39,737 bases of DNA from a virus. The DNA lies in the IMG/VR virus record IMGVR_UViG_3300017687_000001, positions 1 to 39,737 of that record; one strand, written 5' to 3'. Shown here piece by piece: positions 2,494-31,006 of the stretch (its first letter is position 1; each line of letters starts with the position of its first letter). The translations under genes were made by a program, and so were the position numbers. The notes under the pieces are model-generated. The model had not been told where the DNA came from, searched no databases, and worked only from the letters and a program-made list of their open reading frames with translations.

Positions 2494-2551
2494 AGAATAC
2501 CCTAGGGCCCTTCCCTCGTCAAGGATTAAATGAACACTAAGCGAAGTTTTA
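2494..2551 (-). promoter_or_regulatory. Leftward sigma-70 promoter with upstream box (class I, copy B)
   Basis: Minus-strand -35 TTGACG (2522-2517) and -10 TATTCT (2499-2494) are separated by exactly 17 bp. The upstream box AAAACTTCGCTTAGTGTTCA plus TTTAATCC overlaps the stop codon of the integrase gene. A partial operator AGTTAGTGCTTGAT lies in the leader at 2469-2482. Confidence 0.7.
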
Positions 2552-3628
2552 TTCAGGCAGGGCCAAAGTGTCGATCGCCTTGATAAATCCATGGCGAAGG
2601 TCGGGGACCAGGTGCTGGTAAAGTTCGGTGGTCCTGGTGGTGGAGTGGCCCAGGTAGCCCGCCAAGACGGCCATGGGGCATCCGGCCATGGCTAAATGAC
2701 TGGCAAAGGTATGGCGCAACGTATGCCAAGCCAAGCCCTTATGGTAAAGCCCACAACTGGTCAGAAGCCGCTGCATCCAGCGGCTGACCCAGCGGTGGTG
2801 GTGGGGCTCCAGGCCAAAGACCCAGGGCCCGTTCAAGCCGAATTTCAGCCCAATTTCCTTCCACTCCCGAAGCTCCTGGTCCAGCCTAGGGTTGATGGGA
2901 ATCTGACGGGAACGTCCCGTTTTAGTGTGATAGTCGAATTGGGCCTTGGCCTGGACCCGGATGAATTGCCCGGCCAGGTCAACGTCAGCCCACTCCAGGA
3001 AGATCAACTCCCGACGGCGTAGGCCAGTCAGCATCCCAGTCAGGATCATGTAATAGACCCAAGTGGGGGCTTCGGCAGACGCTGTAGTCAGAAGACTGTG
3101 GCATTGGGCCTGGGTCAGGAAGTTCGGCGGCTCATCGGTGGGGACCTTGATCTTGGCGATATCCAGGCCGGGGTTATCCTGGTGATACTCCCAAAGCTGG
3201 GCCTTGGCCAGCGAATGTCTGATTGTGTCCAGTTCCCGATTTATGGTTCGCGCCGCCCGGCCCAGGCGACTTCTGGCCACCTTGTAGCGCTCCAGGTGTT
3301 GGGCCCTGATCTGGCTGACGATCAGGACGTCTTCCTGGGCCAGGAACGGGAGCCACAAGGTTTTCAAGGTGGTAGCGTCACGAACAAACGTGTTCTTGCG
3401 CTTGTTCGTCTGGCTAAATGCCAGGTATTCTTCCACAAATTCCTTGGGAGTTATCGGCTTGATTGCGCGGGCCGTGGCCGGGGCTCCGGTCAGGGCCAGG
3501 AAAAGTTCAGCCGCCCGGCGCTCCGCCACCTCTGGGTCAGTGGTCCTTAAAGACTTCTGGACCCGCTTCCCGTCATAGGCGAAGCTTCCATGGTAGTGCC
3601 CGGACCTCTGATAAATTTGGTATGGCAT
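2549..3628 (-). CDS. int: Tyrosine recombinase / phage integrase
   Basis: A 359-residue integrase catalysing site-specific insertion and excision of the element. Residues ~1-50 form a beta-strand arm-binding-type region (GSFAYDGKRVQKSLRT). A SAM-like core-binding domain spans about 60-155. The catalytic domain from ~168 carries the full active-site set: R204 in TGLRRREL, K236 in HTKTGRSR, H302 and R305 in WHTLRHTF, H328 in LGHS and the nucleophile Y337 in TELYQHL. Length and layout are normal for lambda-family integrases. It is transcribed toward the tRNA-Pro 2.2 kb away. A GTGAGGG ribosome site immediately precedes the ATG. It lies downstream of the resolvase-like gene, and no dedicated promoter is obvious in the 44-bp gap. 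Confidence 0.93.
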   Translation of the reverse strand: MPYQIYQRSGHYHGSFAYDGKRVQKSLRTTDPEVAERRAAELFLALTGAPATARAIKPITPKEFVEEYLAFSQTNKRKNTFVRDATTLKTLWLPFLAQEDVLIVSQIRAQHLERYKVARSRLGRAARTINRELDTIRHSLAKAQLWEYHQDNPGLDIAKIKVPTDEPPNFLTQAQCHSLLTTASAEAPTWVYYMILTGMLTGLRRRELIFLEWADVDLAGQFIRVQAKAQFDYHTKTGRSRQIPINPRLDQELREWKEIGLKFGLNGPWVFGLEPHHHRWVSRWMQRLLTSCGLYHKGLAWHTLRHTFASHLAMAGCPMAVLAGYLGHSTTRTTELYQHLVPDLRHGFIKAIDTLALPE

Positions 3629-11957: not shown

Positions 11958-14900
11958 CTACCCGCGCACCATGGACCGGATTGTGTTCGTGGCGGCTGAA
12001 ATAAGTTCCCTGCCCTCTGCCGGGTTACGCATTGCGTAGCCTGGGGCCACGCAAAGGACCACCTGGGCCTGGAAATACTTGCTATAGATCACCTGGCCAC
12101 AAGAGGCCAGAATGCCGCGCTTATGGCCAAAGAACGCCGCCGCGCCGCGCCCCATGGCCAGGATCAATTTGGGATGAAGCGCTTCCAACTCCCCCGTAAT
12201 CCACTGGTGACATATGGACGGCGGGTCTTCGGGAAGGGAATTGTTAGCCGGGCGGCACTTGTAAAGGGACGTGAAATAGCAGTCTTCTATGGTCAGCCCG
12301 GCTTGCTTCAGGTGCCTGATCAGGAGCGCCTTGTACCCGTCGTTACCGACCAGGATCGCCTTGGCCTGTTCTTCATCCCGGCCAGGGAAGTCGGTCACCA
12401 CCACCACCTTGGCCGTGGCCCCGGCGTAGGCCGGGACCGGCTTGGGGTTGCCGCTGTGTTGCCCCAGGGCGCAAGCCCCGCACCCGTCCAGGCCCTTGGT
12501 CGCCTTTGCCAGGGCGGGGCCGTCCTGGGGCATCTGGCAAAGCCTCACGCGGGGTTTGTAGTAGGGGCCCAAGGCCAGCCGCCGGGCGTCTTCCAAAAGG
12601 TCCTCTTGGTACAGGGGGCCGATCTCTTCCGGTAGATCGGTAAGGTTGGTCACCTTCCCTGCCAGGACGTCGTCCAGATTGGTCAAGAGCCGGGCCGTCA
12701 CCGCGTCAGTGTTCGCCCCGGCCCCGGCCTTCAGAATGGCAGAGATCACCCCCTTGTTACACTTGCGCCGCTCCACCTTGGCCGCGAAACTGAACAGGTC
12801 GTGGCTGGGCCCGGCTTCACTGATCGCAGTCAGGGCCGCCGTCCCTACGCCCTTGATCACGCTAAGTCCCACCCGAAGGGCCCCGCCATCAATCGTCATC
12901 CCAGCTTCGCTTCGATACAGGTCAGGGGGTAGCAGGGGGACCCCAAGCCGGTCACATTCCTTCAAATACATGGGAAGCTTGTCAGCGTCTTCGGTGTTGG
13001 ACAGCATGGCCGCCATGAATTCCAGCGGGTAGTGGATTTTCAGATACATGGAAGCGTAACTGATCAGGGCGTATTCGACTGAGTGGGCCCGGTTGAAGGC
13101 GTAGCTGGCGAAGGCTTCAATCTCACTGAACAGGTTGCCCGCCAACTCTTCCGATATCCCGCTGGTAGTCTGGGCCCCGGCAATGAAGTCCACCCTAAGC
13201 TTGGCCAAGACTTCGGGCTTTTTCTTGCCCATGCCCTTGCGAAGCGTGTCGGCCTGGGCCCCGCTGAATCCACAAAGGGCCATGGCCACCTGCATGACTT
13301 GCTCCTGGTAGACCATAACGCCGAAAGTCGGGCTTAGGGCGGGCTCCAGACTGGGGTGAAGATAGCTGACCGGCTGGCCCTGGGCCCGGCTGACGTAAAG
13401 GTCCATCAGCCCGCTATCCTTGGGACCGGGCCTGAACAGGGCGCTGGTGTCAGACAGGACCATGAAGTCCTTGATCGGGGCCAATTCCTTCAGTAACCGC
13501 TGCATCCCGGCGCTTTCAAACTGAAAAATTGCAGCCGTGTTGCCCTGGCTGAATTCGTCTAGGGTTTCAGGATCGTCCAAGGGGACGGCCCACGGGTCCA
13601 GGTCCACCTTGTGCCGCCGCTTAATCGCCTTTACCGTCTGCCCTATCACAGTGCAGGTCCTGAGCCCCAGGACGTCCATTTTGAGCAGGCCAAAGTATTC
13701 GGCGTCAGCCATGGACCAGTTCACGGTGGGCGTATCGTCCTTTTGCTCCAGGACGGCCAGGGTTTCCAAGGGGACGCTGGAAATCACGATCCCGGCGGCG
13801 TGTTTGCCCTGGCCCCTGATCTGGCCTTCCAACTGCTTGGCCTGAGAGATCACCAGCGGGTATTTCTGGCTCCAGTCAGCTAAGACCGGGTTGGCGGCAA
13901 TGGACCCGTCCAGGCCCAGTTCATTGATCACCATGTTGCTGGCGGTCTGGGCTTCCTTCGGGCCGATCCCGTGAGCCCTGGCCGTGTCCTTCAGAGCCAT
14001 TTTGCTTTGCAGGGTCAGGAAGGTGGCAATGTTGGCCACCTTGTCTTCCCCATATTTTTCCCGCAAATGCCCCGCGATCTCCCCACGGCGTAGGAAGTCG
14101 AAGTCGATATCAATGTCAGGCGGGCTGATACGTTCGGGGTTTAGGAAGCGCTCAAAAAATAGGCCATACTTCAGCGGGTCCACCCGGTGAATCCCCATAA
14201 GGTAAGCCACCAGGGACCCGCCCACCGATCCACGACCTGGGCCGTAGATGATCCCATTCTGATCACACCAGTCAAGTACTTCCCTGACCAGCAGAAAATA
14301 GTCGATAAACCCAAGCTGTTTGATGATCCCGACTTCATGGATCAGCCGGGCATGGTAAGCGTCGGGCATTCCTTCCGGGAACAGCCGGGCGATCCCAGCG
14401 ATCAGGACGGCCCGCAAGGTTGCCTCTGGATCGTCCACCGTGGGCATGACCAGGGCGTGGGGAGTCAGGTCCAGGGCGCACTTGTCGGCGATCTCCCCGG
14501 TGGCCAGAAGCGCCTGCCTGATCGCCGTGGCTTCAAGCAATGGGTGATAGGCCCTGAATTCCTGGGCCATCTGGGTCAGGTCCTTGAAATACAGCCCTGG
14601 GAATTTGGACATATCTGCTACCAGCCGCTTGAATTTGGTGGCCATCAGCACCTGGCGGGCGTCTTCCTGGTCCTGGGTAATGTAGTGGCAGTCATTGCTG
14701 GCCGTCAGGTTGTAACCGTAGCTCCCGGCCAACCTGACAGCTTCCAGGTTGACGGCGCTCTGGCGGGGGTCATTGTGGGGCTGTAGCTCCAGGTAGAAAT
14801 CATCCCCGAACCGCTTGGCCAGGGCGTGGATGATCTCCCGGTCATACTGCATAGCCATTTGAATCATGCCGCCAAAACAAGCCGTGGTCAGGACCACGTT

Positions 14901-15278
14901 GTCTAGGCCAAGGACCTGGTCCAGCCCAAGGCGGGGCTTCCTGAAAAACTGGGTATTGGCCAGGGTTAGGGTCTTCAATAGGCTTGACCACCCGGCTTGA
15001 TTCTTTGCATAGGCGCAAACGTGGAATCTGTCGCTGGCCTTTTCCCCTTTGGTGGTCAGGGGAGAAACCACGACATAGAATTCGCACCCTATGACCGGCT
15101 TGATCCCCTGGGCCTGGCAGGCCTTGTAGAAGTCCAGGGCCCCGCTGACCGTACCGTGGTCACTGAGTCCTAGCGCCTGGTGGCCCTGGCTCTTGGCATG
15201 GGCCGCCCATTGGTCAGGCTGGCCCATGCCGTCCAGGGCGCTATAAGTCGTATGGTTATGAAGCTGTGCAAAATGCAA
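11958..15278 (-). CDS. PHP-type DNA polymerase III alpha fused to UDG-like domain
   Basis: An ~1106-residue C-family replicative polymerase. The PHP domain (1-270) keeps metal ligands that E. coli DnaE has lost: H7 and H9 in LHNHTTYS, D40-H41, E66 and NDCHY ~195, so proofreading may be intrinsic. Palm: GPGRGSVGG (~345) and PDIDIDFDF with D387/D389; the third Asp is D534 in KMDVLG. Fingers contain QFESAGM and FRPGP. An HhH is at IKGVGTAALTAI (~808). Instead of the usual OB fold and tau-binding tail, residues ~928-1106 match family-4 uracil-DNA glycosylase: GCGACALG, TDFPGRDEE, YKCRPANN, SICHQ and APGYAMRNP. Four Fe-S-type Cys are spaced C-x2-C-x71-C-x14-C. The His of the usual HPS motif is Ala, so the domain is probably a non-catalytic sensor. 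The start is TTG after CTGGAGG. Confidence 0.9.
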   Translation of the reverse strand: MHFAQLHNHTTYSALDGMGQPDQWAAHAKSQGHQALGLSDHGTVSGALDFYKACQAQGIKPVIGCEFYVVVSPLTTKGEKASDRFHVCAYAKNQAGWSSLLKTLTLANTQFFRKPRLGLDQVLGLDNVVLTTACFGGMIQMAMQYDREIIHALAKRFGDDFYLELQPHNDPRQSAVNLEAVRLAGSYGYNLTASNDCHYITQDQEDARQVLMATKFKRLVADMSKFPGLYFKDLTQMAQEFRAYHPLLEATAIRQALLATGEIADKCALDLTPHALVMPTVDDPEATLRAVLIAGIARLFPEGMPDAYHARLIHEVGIIKQLGFIDYFLLVREVLDWCDQNGIIYGPGRGSVGGSLVAYLMGIHRVDPLKYGLFFERFLNPERISPPDIDIDFDFLRRGEIAGHLREKYGEDKVANIATFLTLQSKMALKDTARAHGIGPKEAQTASNMVINELGLDGSIAANPVLADWSQKYPLVISQAKQLEGQIRGQGKHAAGIVISSVPLETLAVLEQKDDTPTVNWSMADAEYFGLLKMDVLGLRTCTVIGQTVKAIKRRHKVDLDPWAVPLDDPETLDEFSQGNTAAIFQFESAGMQRLLKELAPIKDFMVLSDTSALFRPGPKDSGLMDLYVSRAQGQPVSYLHPSLEPALSPTFGVMVYQEQVMQVAMALCGFSGAQADTLRKGMGKKKPEVLAKLRVDFIAGAQTTSGISEELAGNLFSEIEAFASYAFNRAHSVEYALISYASMYLKIHYPLEFMAAMLSNTEDADKLPMYLKECDRLGVPLLPPDLYRSEAGMTIDGGALRVGLSVIKGVGTAALTAISEAGPSHDLFSFAAKVERRKCNKGVISAILKAGAGANTDAVTARLLTNLDDVLAGKVTNLTDLPEEIGPLYQEDLLEDARRLALGPYYKPRVRLCQMPQDGPALAKATKGLDGCGACALGQHSGNPKPVPAYAGATAKVVVVTDFPGRDEEQAKAILVGNDGYKALLIRHLKQAGLTIEDCYFTSLYKCRPANNSLPEDPPSICHQWITGELEALHPKLILAMGRGAAAFFGHKRGILASCGQVIYSKYFQAQVVLCVAPGYAMRNPAEGRELISAATNTIRSMVRG

Positions 15279-15309
15279 GCCAACCTCCAGGTGGTTGATT
15301 GTGGCGGTC

Positions 15310-16583: not shown

Positions 16584-18494
16584 TTATTTTCTCCCCTTGA
16601 CCAAGGCGGCGGTCAGCTTGGTCCCCACCACTTCGGCCAACTGGTCCAGGTCATGGACGGCGGCCCGGTTGGGGTAATATGTTTTTACGGTATTGGACTG
16701 GATTCCCACCGCGATTAACTCAATACTGGTCTTTTCCTGAAGGGCTTTCACCACGGTATGAAGGTGGGTTTTGCAATTTCTCCCACTGTAATTAGGATTG
16801 CCGTCACTTAGGATGAAGATGATTTTACGGGCTTCGGGGCGCTTAAGCAGGCGGCGGGCGGCGTAGTGAATTGCGTCCCCATCGTTTGTATTGCCCATCG
16901 CCTGAGCCCCACCAATACGTTCTTTTACCTTCAGATTGAGGCCTTCGTTGAAGGCCTTGAATAGGGGAAGATCGATAGAGCCCCACCGGGTAAACCCTGA
17001 ATATTCGGTGAAGCCTGCCGTCACCAATTCAACAGCATGGGTTTTACGGTCAGCAGTATGCCCAAGTATTTCATGGGCAATCCCTAGGGCGCTCAGGGTT
17101 TCGGTGAACATAGCCAGGACCCCGATCGCCGTGGGCATTCTGCGCTTCATTGAAGCCGACATATCCAGCAAGAGGGTAATCGCCACGTCAGTGGTCTGCC
17201 CCACCGATTTTTGAGAGAAGACGTTCTGGTCCCCGACCCTGGTCCGGTGTAGTGCGCCACTATCCAGCCGCCCACGCCTGAAGCCGCCCACATATTTGGC
17301 CCGGCCTTCGGCCTTCAGGACCCGGTAAAGCCTGGTCCTGATCACATTCGCCTGATCAGAAATTCTTGCCAGGCGGTTGTTGTAGAAGTCTAGGTCCCTG
17401 CACGTCAGGCCCTTATTACGCAGCTTTGCATAATCTTCCCATGGCATACCCACCTTATCGTCTTCGGTGGTCCAGGGCTTGTGCCCCATGCTTTCGTTGC
17501 CAACGTTCAGGGCGGCTTCAATCAGGTCCTTGCCGCTTAGATCATCGGCCTGGGCAGGGGCATTATCTTCCAGGTCCTTGCCCCAATCGGTGTTTTTGTC
17601 TTCGCCAGACCCACCTTCATCGCCACCCTGACCCTGATCGCCCTGATCACCCTGATCGCCCTGATCATCCTGACCCTGACCCTGATCGCCCTGATCACCC
17701 TGATCGCCCTGATCATCCTGACCCTGATCATCCTGACCCTGATCATCCTGACCCTGATCATCCTGACCCTGATCATCCTGACCCTGATCATCCTGATCGC
17801 CCTGATCGCCCTGATCGCCCTGATCATCCTGACCCTGATCGCCCTGATCCTGGGGGTCATCCTGATCCTGGCCCTGTGGCTTATCAAATTCGGGCTCGAA
17901 CGTCTTGACCTTTGCCAGGACCCGACTCGCCAGGGCCAGGGAATCAAGGCCGGGCTCTACAGCCCTGGCCTCTGCTATCTCAGGGGCCAGGAGTTCAGCT
18001 ACCTGGGCCCACTCAGGGGTCAGGGTCTGCCACACCTGGTGATCAGGACGTTCGGCCATAAACTTGACCAGGACTGCCACGTTTTTAGCCTTAGAAACCT
18101 TTTCACTTGGGGTTGCCCCGTCCCTGGCTATAATTTCGTCGGTCAGGTCAGAGATATTCGCCCCACAACCCCGCCACAAGTCGGCCATGCGCCGGTTGAC
18201 CGCGACGTCTTCAATCCCGTTGAAAATCTGAGCCAGGGCCCGGTCCTCTATCTTTGCGATATCCACGTCTTGGCTGAAGAGGAAGTGGCCCACCTCATGG
18301 TCAAGGTAGCCCCTCACCAGTTTGACGATTGCCCAGGGGGCGTTATCTGGTACGGCAGGAAGGTTGACCCGGCCCTTGGTCAATTCGGCGAAGGCGGTCC
18401 CGCCACCGAAGGTCACCCTTAGACCGTATTGTTGGGCCAGAAGCTGGCCCAGGTCTTCAAGGACTTGGCGGGGATTCAGTTGGGCTTGGTTCAT
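16584..18494 (-). CDS. CobT-like VWA protein with HExxH N-terminus
   Basis: A 636-residue partner of the upstream AAA+ ATPase. The N-terminal domain has a zincin-type HEVGHFLF (66-73) with a downstream acidic helix FNGIEDVAVNRRM (~91-103), as in phage CobT-like proteins. A very acidic Asp/Gln/Gly linker spans about 207-300. The C-terminal von Willebrand A domain has a MIDAS: TLLLDMSASMK (~443) and IIFILSDGNPNYSG. MoxR-VWA pairs act as chaperone/remodelling machines. The phage pair is often annotated 'cobaltochelatase', but nothing else of cobalamin synthesis is here, so a DNA/protein remodelling role is more likely. It has its own class I promoter upstream. Confidence 0.85.
   Translation of the reverse strand: MNQAQLNPRQVLEDLGQLLAQQYGLRVTFGGGTAFAELTKGRVNLPAVPDNAPWAIVKLVRGYLDHEVGHFLFSQDVDIAKIEDRALAQIFNGIEDVAVNRRMADLWRGCGANISDLTDEIIARDGATPSEKVSKAKNVAVLVKFMAERPDHQVWQTLTPEWAQVAELLAPEIAEARAVEPGLDSLALASRVLAKVKTFEPEFDKPQGQDQDDPQDQGDQGQDDQGDQGDQGDQDDQGQDDQGQDDQGQDDQGQDDQGQDDQGDQGDQGDQGQGQDDQGDQGDQGDQGQGGDEGGSGEDKNTDWGKDLEDNAPAQADDLSGKDLIEAALNVGNESMGHKPWTTEDDKVGMPWEDYAKLRNKGLTCRDLDFYNNRLARISDQANVIRTRLYRVLKAEGRAKYVGGFRRGRLDSGALHRTRVGDQNVFSQKSVGQTTDVAITLLLDMSASMKRRMPTAIGVLAMFTETLSALGIAHEILGHTADRKTHAVELVTAGFTEYSGFTRWGSIDLPLFKAFNEGLNLKVKERIGGAQAMGNTNDGDAIHYAARRLLKRPEARKIIFILSDGNPNYSGRNCKTHLHTVVKALQEKTSIELIAVGIQSNTVKTYYPNRAAVHDLDQLAEVVGTKLTAALVKGRK
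17629..17873. repeat. Degenerate 9/15-bp tandem repeats (CCTGATC units) in the VWA gene
   Basis: About 245 bp of units such as CCCTGATCG and the 15-mer ACCCTGATCATCCTG encode the D-Q-G linker. The periodicity keeps several frames open on both strands, producing long false ORFs. It is a coding low-complexity tract; the spacing is wrong for CRISPR. Confidence 0.9.
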
Positions 18495-18506
18495 TTCAGG
18501 CCATCC

Positions 18507-18590
18507 AGTTAGTGGTTACTGTATGGTTGATAATGACACGCCGCCCATTACTTGTCAACGTTTAATTGAACACATTGCAAAGTAATGGGC
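18507..18590 (-). promoter_or_regulatory. Leftward sigma-70 promoter with operator (class I, copy C)
   Basis: Minus strand: upstream box ACTTTGCAATGTGTTCA plus ATTAAACG, then -35 TTGACA (18558-18553), 17 bp, -10 CATTAT (18535-18530). Downstream of the expected start lies operator TACAGTAACCACTAACT (18523-18507). It drives the VWA gene. Confidence 0.7.
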
Positions 18591-18598
18591 GGCGGCGG

Positions 18599-19738
18599 TT
18601 AGTTTCCTATGCCAGTCCCGGTTTGGACTATTTGTTCAATCAGGGTTTTTTCCTGTGGGGTCATGCCGTTGGTGTAGGCGAATTTAATGGCCAACTGGGG
18701 ATCGCCCAGGCTCATGTATAGATCAGCCCAGCTTAGGAGATCACGGGCGCTGAAGCCGGAACCGATCTTCCCCTGGACATGGGCGTCCCGGATCAGCCCC
18801 GCCGTCCTGACCAAGGCCGAACGCTCCTGGGACCCAAGGTCAGGGACCTTTTTGGCCAGCATTTGTTTTTCGACCTTGGCGGCCAGATAGTCACATTCCA
18901 TCTTGATCAGGAACCGGCTGACCAGAGCCTGGTTTTGGACCTGGGTCCCGGCGTAGCCGCCCGACATATCCCCATAACCGCCGGTATTGCCAGTAGCCAC
19001 GACCCTAAACATAGGGTGGGCGTGAATCACGTCCTCTTCGCCCCGCTTGTTCAAGAACAGGGACCCCAGGTTGCCATTGGGCTGACGCTCCAGGGGGCCA
19101 TGGAAAAGGAACTGAATGCCGGGGCTGGCAGAGTCCCATTCATCATTGATCAGGGCCAAGCCTTGTTCCATGGCCATGGGCAACGGGCCGGGATTGTACC
19201 AAGTCCCTTCGGCGTTAAGCTGGAATTCTCCCAAAATGTTGTAGGCTTCGGTTTGCTCATGGAATTGGTAGCGGATCACGCCCCAATTAAGCCGGGCAAA
19301 AACCTGCATGGCTAAGGTGGTTTTGCCAGTTCCCGCCGGGCCGCTGATCATGGTGGGCCGGTTGGAATAGATCGCTAACAAGAGGACCGCCGTGTTTAGC
19401 GGATCAAATACATAGTCGGGGTCTATCTCAGGGGTCATTTGGTGGGGCTCTGAAAAGCCGGTCATGGTGAAGGCCACGTCAACCCCGAAGAGGGCTTTCA
19501 GGTCCCCAGGAGTATAGTCCCTGGTGGCCCTGGTGGCCCTGGTGGCCCTGGTGGCCCTGGCCGGGGTAGTGCCCAACACCATTTCTTTGGCCTCTGCCAT
19601 AGCGGCAATCATTTCAGGACTGTAGAGCGGGGCCTTACCATGCTTTTCCTGATAGGCCGCCAGCCCAATGCAGCCGTCATTCAGGTGGCCTTCCAGATTG
19701 TGAGTCAGGCAACCGCATTCCTTGCATGTAAGTTTCAT
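18599..19738 (-). CDS. CobS/MoxR-like AAA+ ATPase
   Basis: A 379-residue ATPase that should power the CobT-like VWA protein encoded next. The N-terminal zinc-finger-like segment (C4-x2-C-x-C, then HNLEGHLNDGC) is followed by GLAAYQEKHGKAPLYSPEM, as in phage CobS proteins. An ATR x4 repeat linker comes next. The AAA+ core has Walker A GPAGTGKTTL (~131), Walker B-like ALINDEWDSA (~170) and a sensor region VVATGNTGGYGD (~240). It is separated from the VWA gene by a second promoter, so the two may be separately regulated. SD AAGGGGCGG precedes the ATG. Confidence 0.88.
   Translation of the reverse strand: MKLTCKECGCLTHNLEGHLNDGCIGLAAYQEKHGKAPLYSPEMIAAMAEAKEMVLGTTPARATRATRATRATRDYTPGDLKALFGVDVAFTMTGFSEPHQMTPEIDPDYVFDPLNTAVLLLAIYSNRPTMISGPAGTGKTTLAMQVFARLNWGVIRYQFHEQTEAYNILGEFQLNAEGTWYNPGPLPMAMEQGLALINDEWDSASPGIQFLFHGPLERQPNGNLGSLFLNKRGEEDVIHAHPMFRVVATGNTGGYGDMSGGYAGTQVQNQALVSRFLIKMECDYLAAKVEKQMLAKKVPDLGSQERSALVRTAGLIRDAHVQGKIGSGFSARDLLSWADLYMSLGDPQLAIKFAYTNGMTPQEKTLIEQIVQTGTGIGN
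19521..19556. repeat. 9-bp tandem repeat x4 in the CobS-like gene
   Basis: CTGGTGGCC occurs four times in exact tandem and encodes the ATR-ATR-ATR-ATR linker. This identity suggests slippage. Confidence 0.9.
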
Positions 19739-23037: not shown

Positions 23038-23883
23038 CTAGACCCCTTTCGATTTGATCAGGCAGTTTAAGGCCTCTAGTTTCTTGCCAGCCCCCACGAA
23101 GGCGGCTAGGTCCTGAAGGCCGTCGCGCCAACGTCGGGGGATTCCATTAACCCCGAATTGCGCCCCAAGCAAGGCCCCGGCCACGGCCCCGTTCGTGTCG
23201 GCGTCCCCGCCCTGGTTAATGACGCGGATCATTCCGGTTTCAAAGTCGGGGGCCGCGCAAGCCCTGACCGCCGTGTCATAGGTGGTCCAGACGTACCCGA
23301 TCGAATCCGGCTTGGCCCGGCTGGTGGTAAGCACGACGTGCCCCCCGGCAAGCAACTGGCCTAGGGCCTGGGCCAACTCTGCAACAGCCGCCTGACAGTT
23401 AATGTGCCGGTGGGTGATCGCCGCCGCTTGGGCCGCCAGGTTGGGGGCCATCCCCGTCCCATCGTAGGCCAGGGCTATCGGGTGGACCCCCATCAGGCAA
23501 CCGTTCGCCTGGGACATTTCGTCAGCGACCCCGCAAACCGTCCAATGCAGCCCCGCCGCGTACCGGCCAAGACTGCAAGCCGTGGTCCCCCCGATATCGA
23601 CGGGGCCTTTCACCATCCATTTCAGCAGGCCAGCGGCCAGGTGATCCCCATGAAAGCCCGCTTTTGCGATCAGCAAGTTGGCCGTGATCAGCGCCACCTG
23701 GGAATCATCGGTCCAGGCCCCAGGCTCCAGGGCAAGCCAGCCGCCGCCCAGGTAGTCGGTCACTTCCCCATGCTTGGTCTTGATCTGTTCGGCAGTCATA
23801 AACTCCAACGGGCCGCCCAGGGCGTCCCCTACTGCCGCCCCCACCATGCACCCGATAAACCTGTCAATCCGGCTAACCAACAT
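23038..23883 (-). CDS. ADP-ribosylglycohydrolase (DraG family)
   Basis: A 281-residue enzyme that removes ADP-ribose from proteins or nucleic acids. Motifs are intact: GAAVGDALGGPLEF (~15-28), the metal site WTDDSQVAL (~57-65) and NQGGDADTNGAVAGALLGAQ (~228-247). Length is typical. It sits between the replicative helicase and primase, starting inside the helicase 3' end with SD AGGGGAG, so it would be expressed with replication genes. A role reversing ADP-ribosylation of phage DNA or of replication proteins (for instance by DarT-like toxins) is a reasonable hypothesis. A housekeeping regulatory role is the alternative. Confidence 0.9.
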   Translation of the reverse strand: MLVSRIDRFIGCMVGAAVGDALGGPLEFMTAEQIKTKHGEVTDYLGGGWLALEPGAWTDDSQVALITANLLIAKAGFHGDHLAAGLLKWMVKGPVDIGGTTACSLGRYAAGLHWTVCGVADEMSQANGCLMGVHPIALAYDGTGMAPNLAAQAAAITHRHINCQAAVAELAQALGQLLAGGHVVLTTSRAKPDSIGYVWTTYDTAVRACAAPDFETGMIRVINQGGDADTNGAVAGALLGAQFGVNGIPRRWRDGLQDLAAFVGAGKKLEALNCLIKSKGV

Positions 23884-28624: not shown

Positions 28625-29251
28625 GTGATCTTCATCCCGCCAGGACTTGATAGGTGGCCCCTGGATAGGCTCATCCCCTATGCAGGGAATTCCAAGAAAC
28701 ACCCCCCTGACCAGATCGATGCAATCGAACGGTCCATGGTGGAATTCGGCTTCTGCGACCCTATCGGCGTGGATGAAAAGAACGGCCAGATCATCGAAGG
28801 GCATGGTCGGCTCATGGCCGGGATGCGCCTGCATAAGAAAGGACTATTGGATGAAGCCCCTATCGTGAAGCTTGGCCATCTGACACCCCTCCAACAAAAA
28901 GCCTACCGGATTGCCCACAACAAGCTCCAGGAACGCGGCGGCGGTCACGACCACGCCAAGCTACTGGCAGAAGTGGGCTTTATAAAGGACGGGGGCCTGG
29001 ACCTGGCCCTGACAGGTTTGTCCCCCAAGGAATTGAGACTTGACGTCAACCTGGACAACACGCCCATTCCCCAGAACGACAACGGCCAGGCCCAGGCCCA
29101 GTTCCCCGTCCTATCTTTTTCCCACTACAAGGTGGGTATGACCCAAGGCGAAATTGAACACCTGGAGCGCCTTTACCTTGAATGGGTAGAGGTCAACGGT
29201 AGCGGGTGGGGCTTCGTCACCAGCATCCTGGGGGTGAACGATGCCTTATAA
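28625..29251 (+). CDS. ParB/sulfiredoxin-fold nuclease-domain protein
   Basis: A 208-residue protein starting at GTG 28625. The ParB N-terminal domain is clear: LIPYAGNSKKHPPDQIDAIE (~16-35), GFCDPIGVDEKNGQIIEGHG (~42-61) and the RLMAGMRL helix. This is the variant usually fused to phage DNA methylases. KAYRIAHNKLQERGGG follows, but here no methylase follows in the same chain. The C-terminal ~70 residues (SHYKVGMTQGEIEHLERLYL) are unassigned. Partition is unlikely since there is no ParA; a DNA-binding/nuclease or modification accessory role fits better. It overlaps the next gene by 11 bases. Confidence 0.75.
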   Translation: MIFIPPGLDRWPLDRLIPYAGNSKKHPPDQIDAIERSMVEFGFCDPIGVDEKNGQIIEGHGRLMAGMRLHKKGLLDEAPIVKLGHLTPLQQKAYRIAHNKLQERGGGHDHAKLLAEVGFIKDGGLDLALTGLSPKELRLDVNLDNTPIPQNDNGQAQAQFPVLSFSHYKVGMTQGEIEHLERLYLEWVEVNGSGWGFVTSILGVNDAL

Positions 29252-29636
29252 AACCACCAAAGCCAACTTCGCCTATTTCAAGGCCAGGGCTGAATACTGG
29301 CAGCAAGAACTAGGCTTGTATGACTGGCATATCGGCGTGTTCCATGGCTTGGAAACCTTCCCTGAGGGCACCAGCTTAGGCGAATATTCGGCGAACTGGC
29401 AGTCCCACTCTGGGTATGTCGCTCTGGCCAAGGATTGGGGGAAGGATGAAATTACCCAAGCCATGCTGGATGAAGTGGCGTTCCATGAAATGTTCCACTT
29501 CGCCAACAGTCGTATGATCTTCCTGGCCGAAGAGCGCTGTTCGTCTACCTTTGATATTGAAGAGGAAGGCCATGCCCTGATTCGGCGAATGGAAAACCTT
29601 ATGCGTCGCCGGGGGGAATTCGGGGTCCCGGCATGA
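29241..29636 (+). CDS. HExxH metallopeptidase-like protein
   Basis: A 131-residue protein. The front (FKARAEYWQQELGLYDWHIG) resembles the start of SprT-like/phage metallopeptidases. The zinc motif HEMFH lies at ~88-92 in LDEVAFHEMFHFANSRM, and a downstream acidic helix IEEEGHALIRRMENLM may give the third ligand. It might cleave protein on DNA or a host factor. Substrate is unknown. It overlaps both neighbours, both of which carry ParB-type domains, so the three are clearly one cassette. Confidence 0.7.
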   Translation: MPYKTTKANFAYFKARAEYWQQELGLYDWHIGVFHGLETFPEGTSLGEYSANWQSHSGYVALAKDWGKDEITQAMLDEVAFHEMFHFANSRMIFLAEERCSSTFDIEEEGHALIRRMENLMRRRGEFGVPA

Positions 29637-31006
29637 GTTTCATTGAGGACTACCCAGTGGCCGATCTAAAGCCCGCCCCCTACAACCCCCGGCTGATCGA
29701 CCAGCCCAGCTTTGACCGGCTGAAGAGGTCCATTGAGCGCTTTGGGGTCGTCAAGCCCCTGATCATCAATGGCGACGGGACCATTGTGGCCGGTCACCAG
29801 CGGGCCAGGGCGCTTCGGTCCCTGGGGATTGAGAAGGCCCCCGTCTATCCCCTACCCTTGGTCAGCCTTCACGATGAAATCAGGTTTAACCAATTCCACA
29901 ATTCAGTGGAGACTTCAGCCACCCCGGTCAACGTGACCTGTTCCCTGCCCGCCGCTGGTGGCTGGACCTGGATCACCCCGGACTACCTTGAAGTCGGCCC
30001 CCGCCAGAACACCGTCGTGGTTGCAGAGATCGCCCGCCTGATTGCCAGGTATGGGGACTGGGGGTCCATCATCGTGGACAAGACGGGCCGGGCAATCCTG
30101 AACAGTGACTATGCCGTGGCGGCCAGGCAAATGGGTTATAACGTCTTGGCCTGGGTTGTGCCTTACGAAGAGGATTCCCGGCCCCTGGCCGAATGCCTGG
30201 CCCAGGAGTATGGGGAATATTCCTATGGGCTCCTGGACGTCAAGCCGTTCAATCAAGTGGCTTGCCAGCGTCCCCGCGTAAAGGGGAAGCAAAGCACTCT
30301 GTATGAACGCCTGGTCAAGCCTTGCGTCCAGCCCGGCATGACCCTGATCGACTTCGGGGCTGGCCGGGGTGAAGCCGTAGCTGATCTATGCGCCCAGGGC
30401 CACTGGGCCTTCGCCTATGAGCCCTATATCAGCGCCGGGCCTGGTAGTAAGGCCTTGGACGTATGGGCCACTGTGCAACAGATAGACGCCCTGGAAAAGC
30501 AAATTGAAGACCACGGCCTGGCCGACGTCGTGGTCCTGGACAGCGTGATCAACAGCACCGTCAGTGTCGGGGCCCACCACCATGTATTGACAACCTGTAA
30601 TGCCCTAATGGGCCCCGATGCTGTTTTCTTCACTTCGACCAGGAGCCAAGGCGAGAACGAACGCCGGGCTAGGTTCACCAAGGTCAGCAATACCCACAAG
30701 CGATACATGGAATTCCTGGACCGGGACGGCTACAGCGCCAGCTTTATGAACGGTCATTGGAGCCTGCAAAGGTTCATGACTGCCGACCAGCTGGAAGCTG
30801 ACCTGGCCCAATACTTTGAGGCCGTCAAGGTGATCCCCGGCCCGACTCAGCTATGGGCATCGTGCCGGGGCCCCCGTCAGCTACCCATGGACCAATACGA
30901 AAACTCGTTGTGTGTTGAGTTTGACATGGAATACCCCGGCGGCCTACGCCACGGCCTGGCCCGGCCCCTAGTGGATGCAATCCTGAAAAGATTGGAAACC
31001 AGATGA
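29633..31006 (+). CDS. ParB domain fused to SAM-methyltransferase-like domain
   Basis: A 457-residue two-part protein. The ParB-like domain is ~1-105 (YPVADLKPAPYNPRLIDQPS, VVKPLIINGDGTIVAGHQRA). After a linker region of ~100 residues comes a Rossmann methyltransferase fold. Motif I is TLIDFGAGRGEAVADL (~240-255), and the strand DVVVLDSVINST (~300) sits at the usual catalytic position. The DPPY/NPPF motif of N6/N4 DNA methylases is missing, so the target is not a standard DNA amino methylation. The protein ends with NSLCVEFDMEYPGG. Its ATG lies inside the preceding gene's end, and its TGA overlaps the next ATG. Confidence 0.7.
   Translation: MSFIEDYPVADLKPAPYNPRLIDQPSFDRLKRSIERFGVVKPLIINGDGTIVAGHQRARALRSLGIEKAPVYPLPLVSLHDEIRFNQFHNSVETSATPVNVTCSLPAAGGWTWITPDYLEVGPRQNTVVVAEIARLIARYGDWGSIIVDKTGRAILNSDYAVAARQMGYNVLAWVVPYEEDSRPLAECLAQEYGEYSYGLLDVKPFNQVACQRPRVKGKQSTLYERLVKPCVQPGMTLIDFGAGRGEAVADLCAQGHWAFAYEPYISAGPGSKALDVWATVQQIDALEKQIEDHGLADVVVLDSVINSTVSVGAHHHVLTTCNALMGPDAVFFTSTRSQGENERRARFTKVSNTHKRYMEFLDRDGYSASFMNGHWSLQRFMTADQLEADLAQYFEAVKVIPGPTQLWASCRGPRQLPMDQYENSLCVEFDMEYPGGLRHGLARPLVDAILKRLETR

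Follow-up and report, generated by a model that had tools for sequence, protein, structure and literature searches.

A family-4 uracil-DNA glycosylase-like domain, predicted to be non-catalytic, at the C-terminus of a phage DnaE polymerase

In poxviruses, a glycosylase fold has been recruited to the viral polymerase: D4, the vaccinia UNG, is a separate protein bridged by A20, is still catalytic and belongs to family 1 of the uracil-DNA glycosylases (UDGs), without an iron-sulfur (Fe-S) cluster. D4 is the poxvirus processivity factor; catalytic mutants were reported to support replication, which is disputed by others, and the role of the vaccinia enzyme in the viral replication complex has been called apparently unique among DNA glycosylases (PMC10253040). 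Fusions between a polymerase and a UDG are already known for family A: SPO1-type phages, Lysinibacillus phage LysYB1, Pseudomonas phage PMBT14, PaBG (PMC7412058) and phiLo (structure 9qhs; no paper was found in the literature searched) carry a UDG-4-like domain in their replicative polymerase. Here, we analyse a gene at positions 11958-15278 (minus strand) of IMG/VR virus record IMGVR_UViG_3300017687_000001, a stretch of 39,737 nucleotides referred to as the window. It encodes a polymerase of another family, DnaE (family C), and carries its UDG domain at the opposite chain end. For this type of fusion, the literature searched yielded no paper and the databases one record note, which already says 'uracil-DNA glycosylase-like' for the DnaE of Rhizobium phage RHEph10.

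The domain is closest to the family-4 UDGs (Tth UDGa 1ui0/1ui1, Tma 1vk2, Sto 4zbx), with which it shares the fold (Z ~23, 1.9-2.5 Å), the four cysteine positions, the motif order and the motif-B arginine. It differs from them by its fusion to a polymerase, by replacement of the residues corresponding to E41, F54, N80 and H155 of the Thermus enzyme (Tth) and by a score below the UDG_fam4 cut-off. UdgX (MsmUdgX) is also a close structural match (Z ~21-22), but its motif A reads GEQPG where the window has TDFPG, and its uracil recognition depends on N91 and H178, whose counterparts are lost in the window.

Architecture of the fused polymerase

The reading frame is uninterrupted over 1106 codons. 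Its main features are:

11958..15278, minus strand: DnaE-type DNA polymerase III alpha with a C-terminal UDG-family-4 domain, 1106 aa, TTG start (domain searches, model)
15284..15288, minus strand: Shine-Dalgarno-like GGAGG, five bases before the TTG (sequence read)
14469..15278, minus strand: PHP domain, residues 1 to ~270 (Pfam PHP 2.8e-30 at 6-168)
13665..14417, minus strand: DNA_pol3_alpha (palm), residues 288-538 (Pfam), with the catalytic Asp motif PDIDIDF at 387-393
13167..13655, minus strand: DNA_pol3 finger domain, residues 542-704 (Pfam)
12717..12944, minus strand: helix-hairpin-helix (HhH) domain, residues 779-854 (Pfam HHH_6 4.1e-13)
12519..12665, minus strand: low-confidence linker, residues 872-920 (helix/linker in the model), with a predicted local distance difference test score (pLDDT) mostly below 60 and in stretches below 50
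12594..12608, minus strand: QEDLL, residues 891-895, a candidate resembling the beta-clamp-binding pentapeptide (sequence)
11961..12518, minus strand: UDG-family-4-like domain, residues 921-1106 (Pfam UDG 7.4e-14; model; structural match 1ui1)

The N-terminal part carries domains of a C-family DNA polymerase III alpha in the expected order: PHP, a palm with three catalytic aspartates, fingers and HhH, followed in the Pfam order by the UDG match at 953-1089. It matches TIGR00594 with 777 bits (cut-off 434), and the ten tested positions of the PHP metal site (H7, H9, D16, D40, H41, E66, H86, C134, D196, H198) are all intact. The structure was modelled with AlphaFold2 using relatives from IMG/VR, which yielded a mean pLDDT of 88 for the full chain and of 81 for a model of residues 855-1106. 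Residues 1-871 superpose on E. coli Pol III alpha (2hnh) with Z 47.4 over 854 residues, and residues 922-1106 on Thermus UDG 1ui1 with Z 23.6 and a root-mean-square deviation of 1.9 Å over 179 residues. The Pfam UDG match is above Pfam's cut-off, and among PDB sequences it is Thermus UDG 1ui0 that the domain matches best (1.8e-16). By sequence and model, a single protein that joins a full PHP/DnaE polymerase (residues 1-871) to a family-4 UDG fold (921-1106) is confirmed, in agreement with the first-pass annotation. A frameshift or an assembly join, which that annotation had named as the event that could separate the two parts, is excluded: the whole gene shows no nucleotide difference from that in two other IMG/VR contigs (L002 and L003), so the fusion is not an assembly artefact, and isolated phages have the same architecture. 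The fusion is not unique to the window phage either, as other phage DnaE proteins share it.

Alignment to the Thermus enzyme places the functional residues of the domain as follows:

12471..12482, minus strand: Fe-S cysteines C933 and C936 (Tth C13, C16)
12372..12395, minus strand: motif A position, TDFPGRDE, residues 962-969, with D963 at Tth E41
12351..12353, minus strand: L976 at Tth F54, presumably the uracil-stacking Phe
12267..12269, minus strand: S1004 at Tth N80, the uracil-recognising Asn (role: PMC10359453)
12255..12257, minus strand: Fe-S cysteine C1008 (Tth C84)
12210..12212, minus strand: Fe-S cysteine C1023 (Tth C100)
12021..12047, minus strand: motif B position, APGYAMRNP, residues 1078-1086, with A1078 for the catalytic His and the DNA-contacting Arg kept as R1084

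The alpha/beta fold and the four cysteine ligand positions are thus present, with the spacing C933-x2-C936-x71-C1008-x14-C1023 exactly as first described, and the 4Fe-4S cluster is probably kept. At Tth positions C13, C16, E41, F54, N80, C84, C100 and H155, however, the window reads CCDLSCCA versus CCEFNCCH in an intact UDG4. F54 is the residue that we take to stack on uracil, based on the Thermus structure. In UdgX, at the corresponding residues, His and Asn hydrogen-bond uracil, the nucleophile or water is activated by Glu, and the motif-B Arg contributes to the binding of substrate DNA (PMC10359453); the motif-B His is described as completely conserved and essential in the UDG superfamily (PMC5295032). 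The window has TDFPG (962-966) in place of GE[AG]PG in motif A and Ala1078 in place of the motif-B His, both as the first reading had it, and Ser1004 instead of the uracil-binding Asn. Its NCBIfam UDG_fam4 match (4.9e-19, 68.7 bits) is below the curated cut-off of 125.3, and its UdgX family score is far below the required value (49 bits vs 190). Because three defining residues and the curated family-4 score fail, the domain is, as judged from its sequence, UDG-derived and not a UDG, and catalysis is predicted to be lost. A pocket altered in this way is expected neither to excise uracil nor to recognise it specifically, while some DNA-contact features survive. Net charge (+6.3) and isoelectric point (9.0) are those of a basic domain.

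Active and dead branches of the fusion

At least 36 phage DnaE proteins carry a C-terminal UDG fusion, some of them with an intact UDG at the same position; the first-pass annotation had proposed to search for the fusion in other phage DnaE proteins. Among DnaE-bearing frames from IMG/VR and isolated phages, ~40 of 93 have the tail. Isolated phages with the fusion are Rhizobium X66, N1_15 and RHEph10, Pseudomonas hairong and nickie, Stenotrophomonas ANB28 and SSU5-like phages. Their genes are ordered CobT-CobS, DnaE, then exonuclease and RecA, with an annotated SSB in most. The DnaE proteins of RHEph10/X66, nickie/hairong, ANB28 and the SSU5-like phages resemble that of the window in the C-terminal fusion and largely in gene order, but they have lost one to four of the cysteines as well as PHP metal residues, both of which the window keeps. 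None of 15 records with the fusion has a stand-alone UDG elsewhere, and one record contains two DnaE copies, both fused.

The fused domains fall into two branches. In the active branch, the sister of the one that comprises the window, E41, N80 and H155 are all kept in 10 of 13 rows and the four cysteines in all 13. As 12 of these 13 rows were fetched by DnaE motifs, this intactness does not result from selection on UDG motifs. Eight DnaE loci (L027, L028, L029, L037, L038, L063, L067, L168) whose C-terminal UDG has intact-looking cysteines and catalytic residues are candidate active glycosylase-polymerases. In the dead branch, none of 23 rows, window included, keeps the E41/N80/H155 triad. Only the window retains four cysteines; some members have three and the rest lose all. 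Intact PHP metal residues are a feature of the active kind, of DnaE without UDG and of the window, and the other dead-kind members have lost them. The intact residues at the same place in the sister branch suggest that the domain began as an enzyme and later became non-catalytic.

A UDG tree was calculated from 157 domains (cellular, viral stand-alone, family-A fused and DnaE fused). One branch, with support 98, has all 36 DnaE-fused domains on the same side, which favours a single origin of the fusion. The trees of the DnaE core do not settle the number of fusions: presence and absence of the UDG require two changes in the first tree and four in the mixture-model tree, and two fusions are possible. 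In both DnaE trees, the window is the sister to the rest of the dead branch (support 80 and 94), which is suggestive, not conclusive, of its being the least derived member. The N-terminal fusion to family-A polymerases, present in 41 of 80 viral UDG loci fetched, appears to be separate. Nearly all of the examples examined retain the His, which the window has lost, and many of them may therefore be active; the family-A, cellular and stand-alone viral sets were fetched with motif patterns, which biases their rates of intact residues.

In spite of the lost catalytic residues, the UDG domain of the dead relatives is under purifying selection, usually near the level of the core. Eight close pairs were measurable in both parts: omega for the UDG domain was 0.04-0.22 in seven of them and 0.54 in one (L004/L044), compared with 0.11-0.23 for the polymerase core in the same eight pairs. 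Constraint of this degree on a dead domain implies that it serves a function. For the window's own domain, constraint is deduced from the relatives, since only identical copies of its gene exist.

Side observations concern the fused genes themselves. In a Klebsiella SSU5-like phage, dnaE is interrupted by an open reading frame resembling an HNH-type homing endonuclease (L010:8364-9065), and in Escherichia phage Cyrano the same place of the DnaE is occupied by ~47 residues inserted in frame. PHROG phrog_4335, a family without an assigned function, has matches to the DnaE finger/HhH region as well as to the UDG domain and therefore seems to consist of C-terminal pieces of fused polymerases.

Possible functions of the altered domain

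The reading that we prefer, with a probability slightly below one half, is that the tail of the window polymerase is a non-catalytic DNA-holding module that keeps the enzyme on the primer-template. A family-4 UDG would have been fused to a phage replicative DnaE, and in the lineage of the window it would have stopped being an enzyme when the residues for uracil recognition and excision were lost. In the place of the OB and tau domains, it retains the UDG fold, a basic surface, the motif-B Arg and, probably, the 4Fe-4S cluster. The domain would hold DNA next to the polymerase and thereby aid processivity, by functional analogy with D4 in the poxvirus polymerase. DNA holding is suggested by the retained cysteines and Arg, the basic charge and the location. 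Neither the record of the window nor three complete dead-branch phage genomes yielded a beta clamp gene, which also counts in favour of this reading. Tentative, and clearly less probable, is the wider proposal that, in one lineage of phage replicases, a base-excision enzyme that was part of the polymerase chain became an internal processivity domain that holds DNA, that the resulting DnaE may not need a sliding clamp and that active, Fe-S-bearing dead (window) and Fe-S-free members are all alive.

Several observations weigh against DNA holding. The UDG domains of the cysteine-less relatives are acidic (loss of cysteines vs acidity: p = 4e-5, uncorrected for relatedness), so that the branch as a whole cannot have DNA gripping as its common function. 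A DnaE group near the active branch (L036, L040, L043) ends just after the HhH region and has no UDG anywhere in the records examined; domain loss or relocation is the candidate reading, and the UDG domain seems dispensable in some lineages. Furthermore, QEDLL between HhH and UDG may be a beta-clamp-binding motif. A QxELL(P)G-like motif is found at about the same place in most dead-UDG relatives, and a host clamp could supply processivity. The first-pass annotation had stated that the chain has no obvious OB fold or clamp/tau tail. The first half agrees with the lack of a Pfam OB match in the window polymerase, although absence of a match is not proof, and with structural alignments of the model to Pol III alpha chains, which stop at about residue 867-908 (E. 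coli: 871); the missing clamp tail is unproven in view of QEDLL.

In cellular Pol III alpha, the place of the UDG tail is occupied by the OB fold and the tau-binding domain. This location would also suit a protein-interaction or scaffold module that has taken over from the OB/tau tail and links the polymerase with other phage proteins such as SSB, helicase or CobS/CobT-like proteins. Such a role would account for acidic yet constrained cysteine-less relatives and is in line with the synteny CobT-CobS, DnaE, (SSB in most) exonuclease and RecA kept across distant phages. An interaction-only module, however, would not need the four cysteines, the motif-B Arg and the basic charge of the window. 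In addition, three active-branch loci (L029, L037, L038) seem, by eye, to hold an OB-fold-like segment of ~100 residues before the UDG, which Pfam did not confirm as an OB fold; if so, the UDG cannot simply have taken the place of the OB fold. For the window, we regard a scaffold as doubtful, though it ranks above all other alternatives to DNA holding.

The first reading had instead proposed a built-in sensor of uracil or modified bases in the template, by which the polymerase would be stalled or steered; such a sensor would bind a flipped base. The UDG fold is retained, as is probably the Fe-S cluster, and with the exchanges F54 to L and N80 to S a 5-substituted pyrimidine might in principle fit into the pocket. 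A link to modified pyrimidines is hinted at by family-A polymerases with an N-terminal UDG (L013, L014, L016, L008), which adjoin genes for thymidylate synthase, dCMP/cytidine deaminase or pyrimidine hydroxymethylase, and by the phiLo polymerase structure, whose N-terminus matches the UDG model and which is titled 'with modified template'. On the other hand, N80 and H155, which hydrogen-bond uracil, and the stacking Phe are gone, the triad is absent throughout the dead branch, and no pyrimidine-modification gene was found among the window proteins scanned. With N80 to S, H155 to A, E41 to D and F54 to L, uracil sensing is therefore unlikely. Of the proposal that the domain may bind but not cleave uracil, the predicted loss of cleavage stands, while binding lacks support. 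The analogy to archaeal PolB read-ahead pockets was considered and has no direct evidence here. As a correlate of uracil metabolism, a dUTPase scored above cut-off in two of 18 records, both dead-branch, which is not informative. Thymidylate synthase, taken as a correlate of base modification, did so in several dead-branch and both family-A records and in none of the active branch, but most contigs are fragments. Overall, the interpretation of the first-pass annotation is partly supported, and our inference favours a DNA-holding domain over a uracil sensor.

Two further explanations can be given very little weight. A glycosylase with altered specificity would fit the intact fold, the four cysteines and the exchange of E41 for D, which keeps an acid at the water-activating position, but with both N80 and the superfamily-essential His (PMC5295032) lost, it is highly improbable. 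A functionless remnant in decay could explain why members of the branch have lost His, Asn, Cys and even PHP metal residues to different degrees. Since the dead domains are under purifying selection, usually near that of the core, and the domain fold is predicted with good confidence, this explanation is already disfavoured for the relatives and is the least credible of all.

Genomic neighbourhood and implications

In the window, genes for CobT-like VWA and CobS-like AAA proteins (16584-19738, minus strand) adjoin the polymerase gene, an arrangement kept across distant phages. The CobT-like protein contains a long low-complexity QDDQGDQ stretch. An ADP-ribosylglycohydrolase gene (23038-23883, minus strand; Pfam 9.5e-54) is located next to that of a DnaB-like helicase. 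Two neighbouring ParB-like proteins are encoded on the plus strand (29633-31006 and 28625-29251), the longer one with a methyltransferase-like domain; the window phage may modify DNA. It may also be temperate, as an integrase gene is present (2549-3628, minus strand).

Should the domain indeed hold DNA for the polymerase, it would represent a second viral recruitment of a glycosylase, this time by covalent fusion and to another family of polymerase, and its intact, dead-but-clustered and cluster-free stages would all still exist. The way in which a repair enzyme becomes part of a replisome, and the role of an Fe-S cluster after catalysis has been lost, would become testable. The analysis also lists phage polymerases that end in an intact UDG, and their effect on template uracil can be assayed directly.

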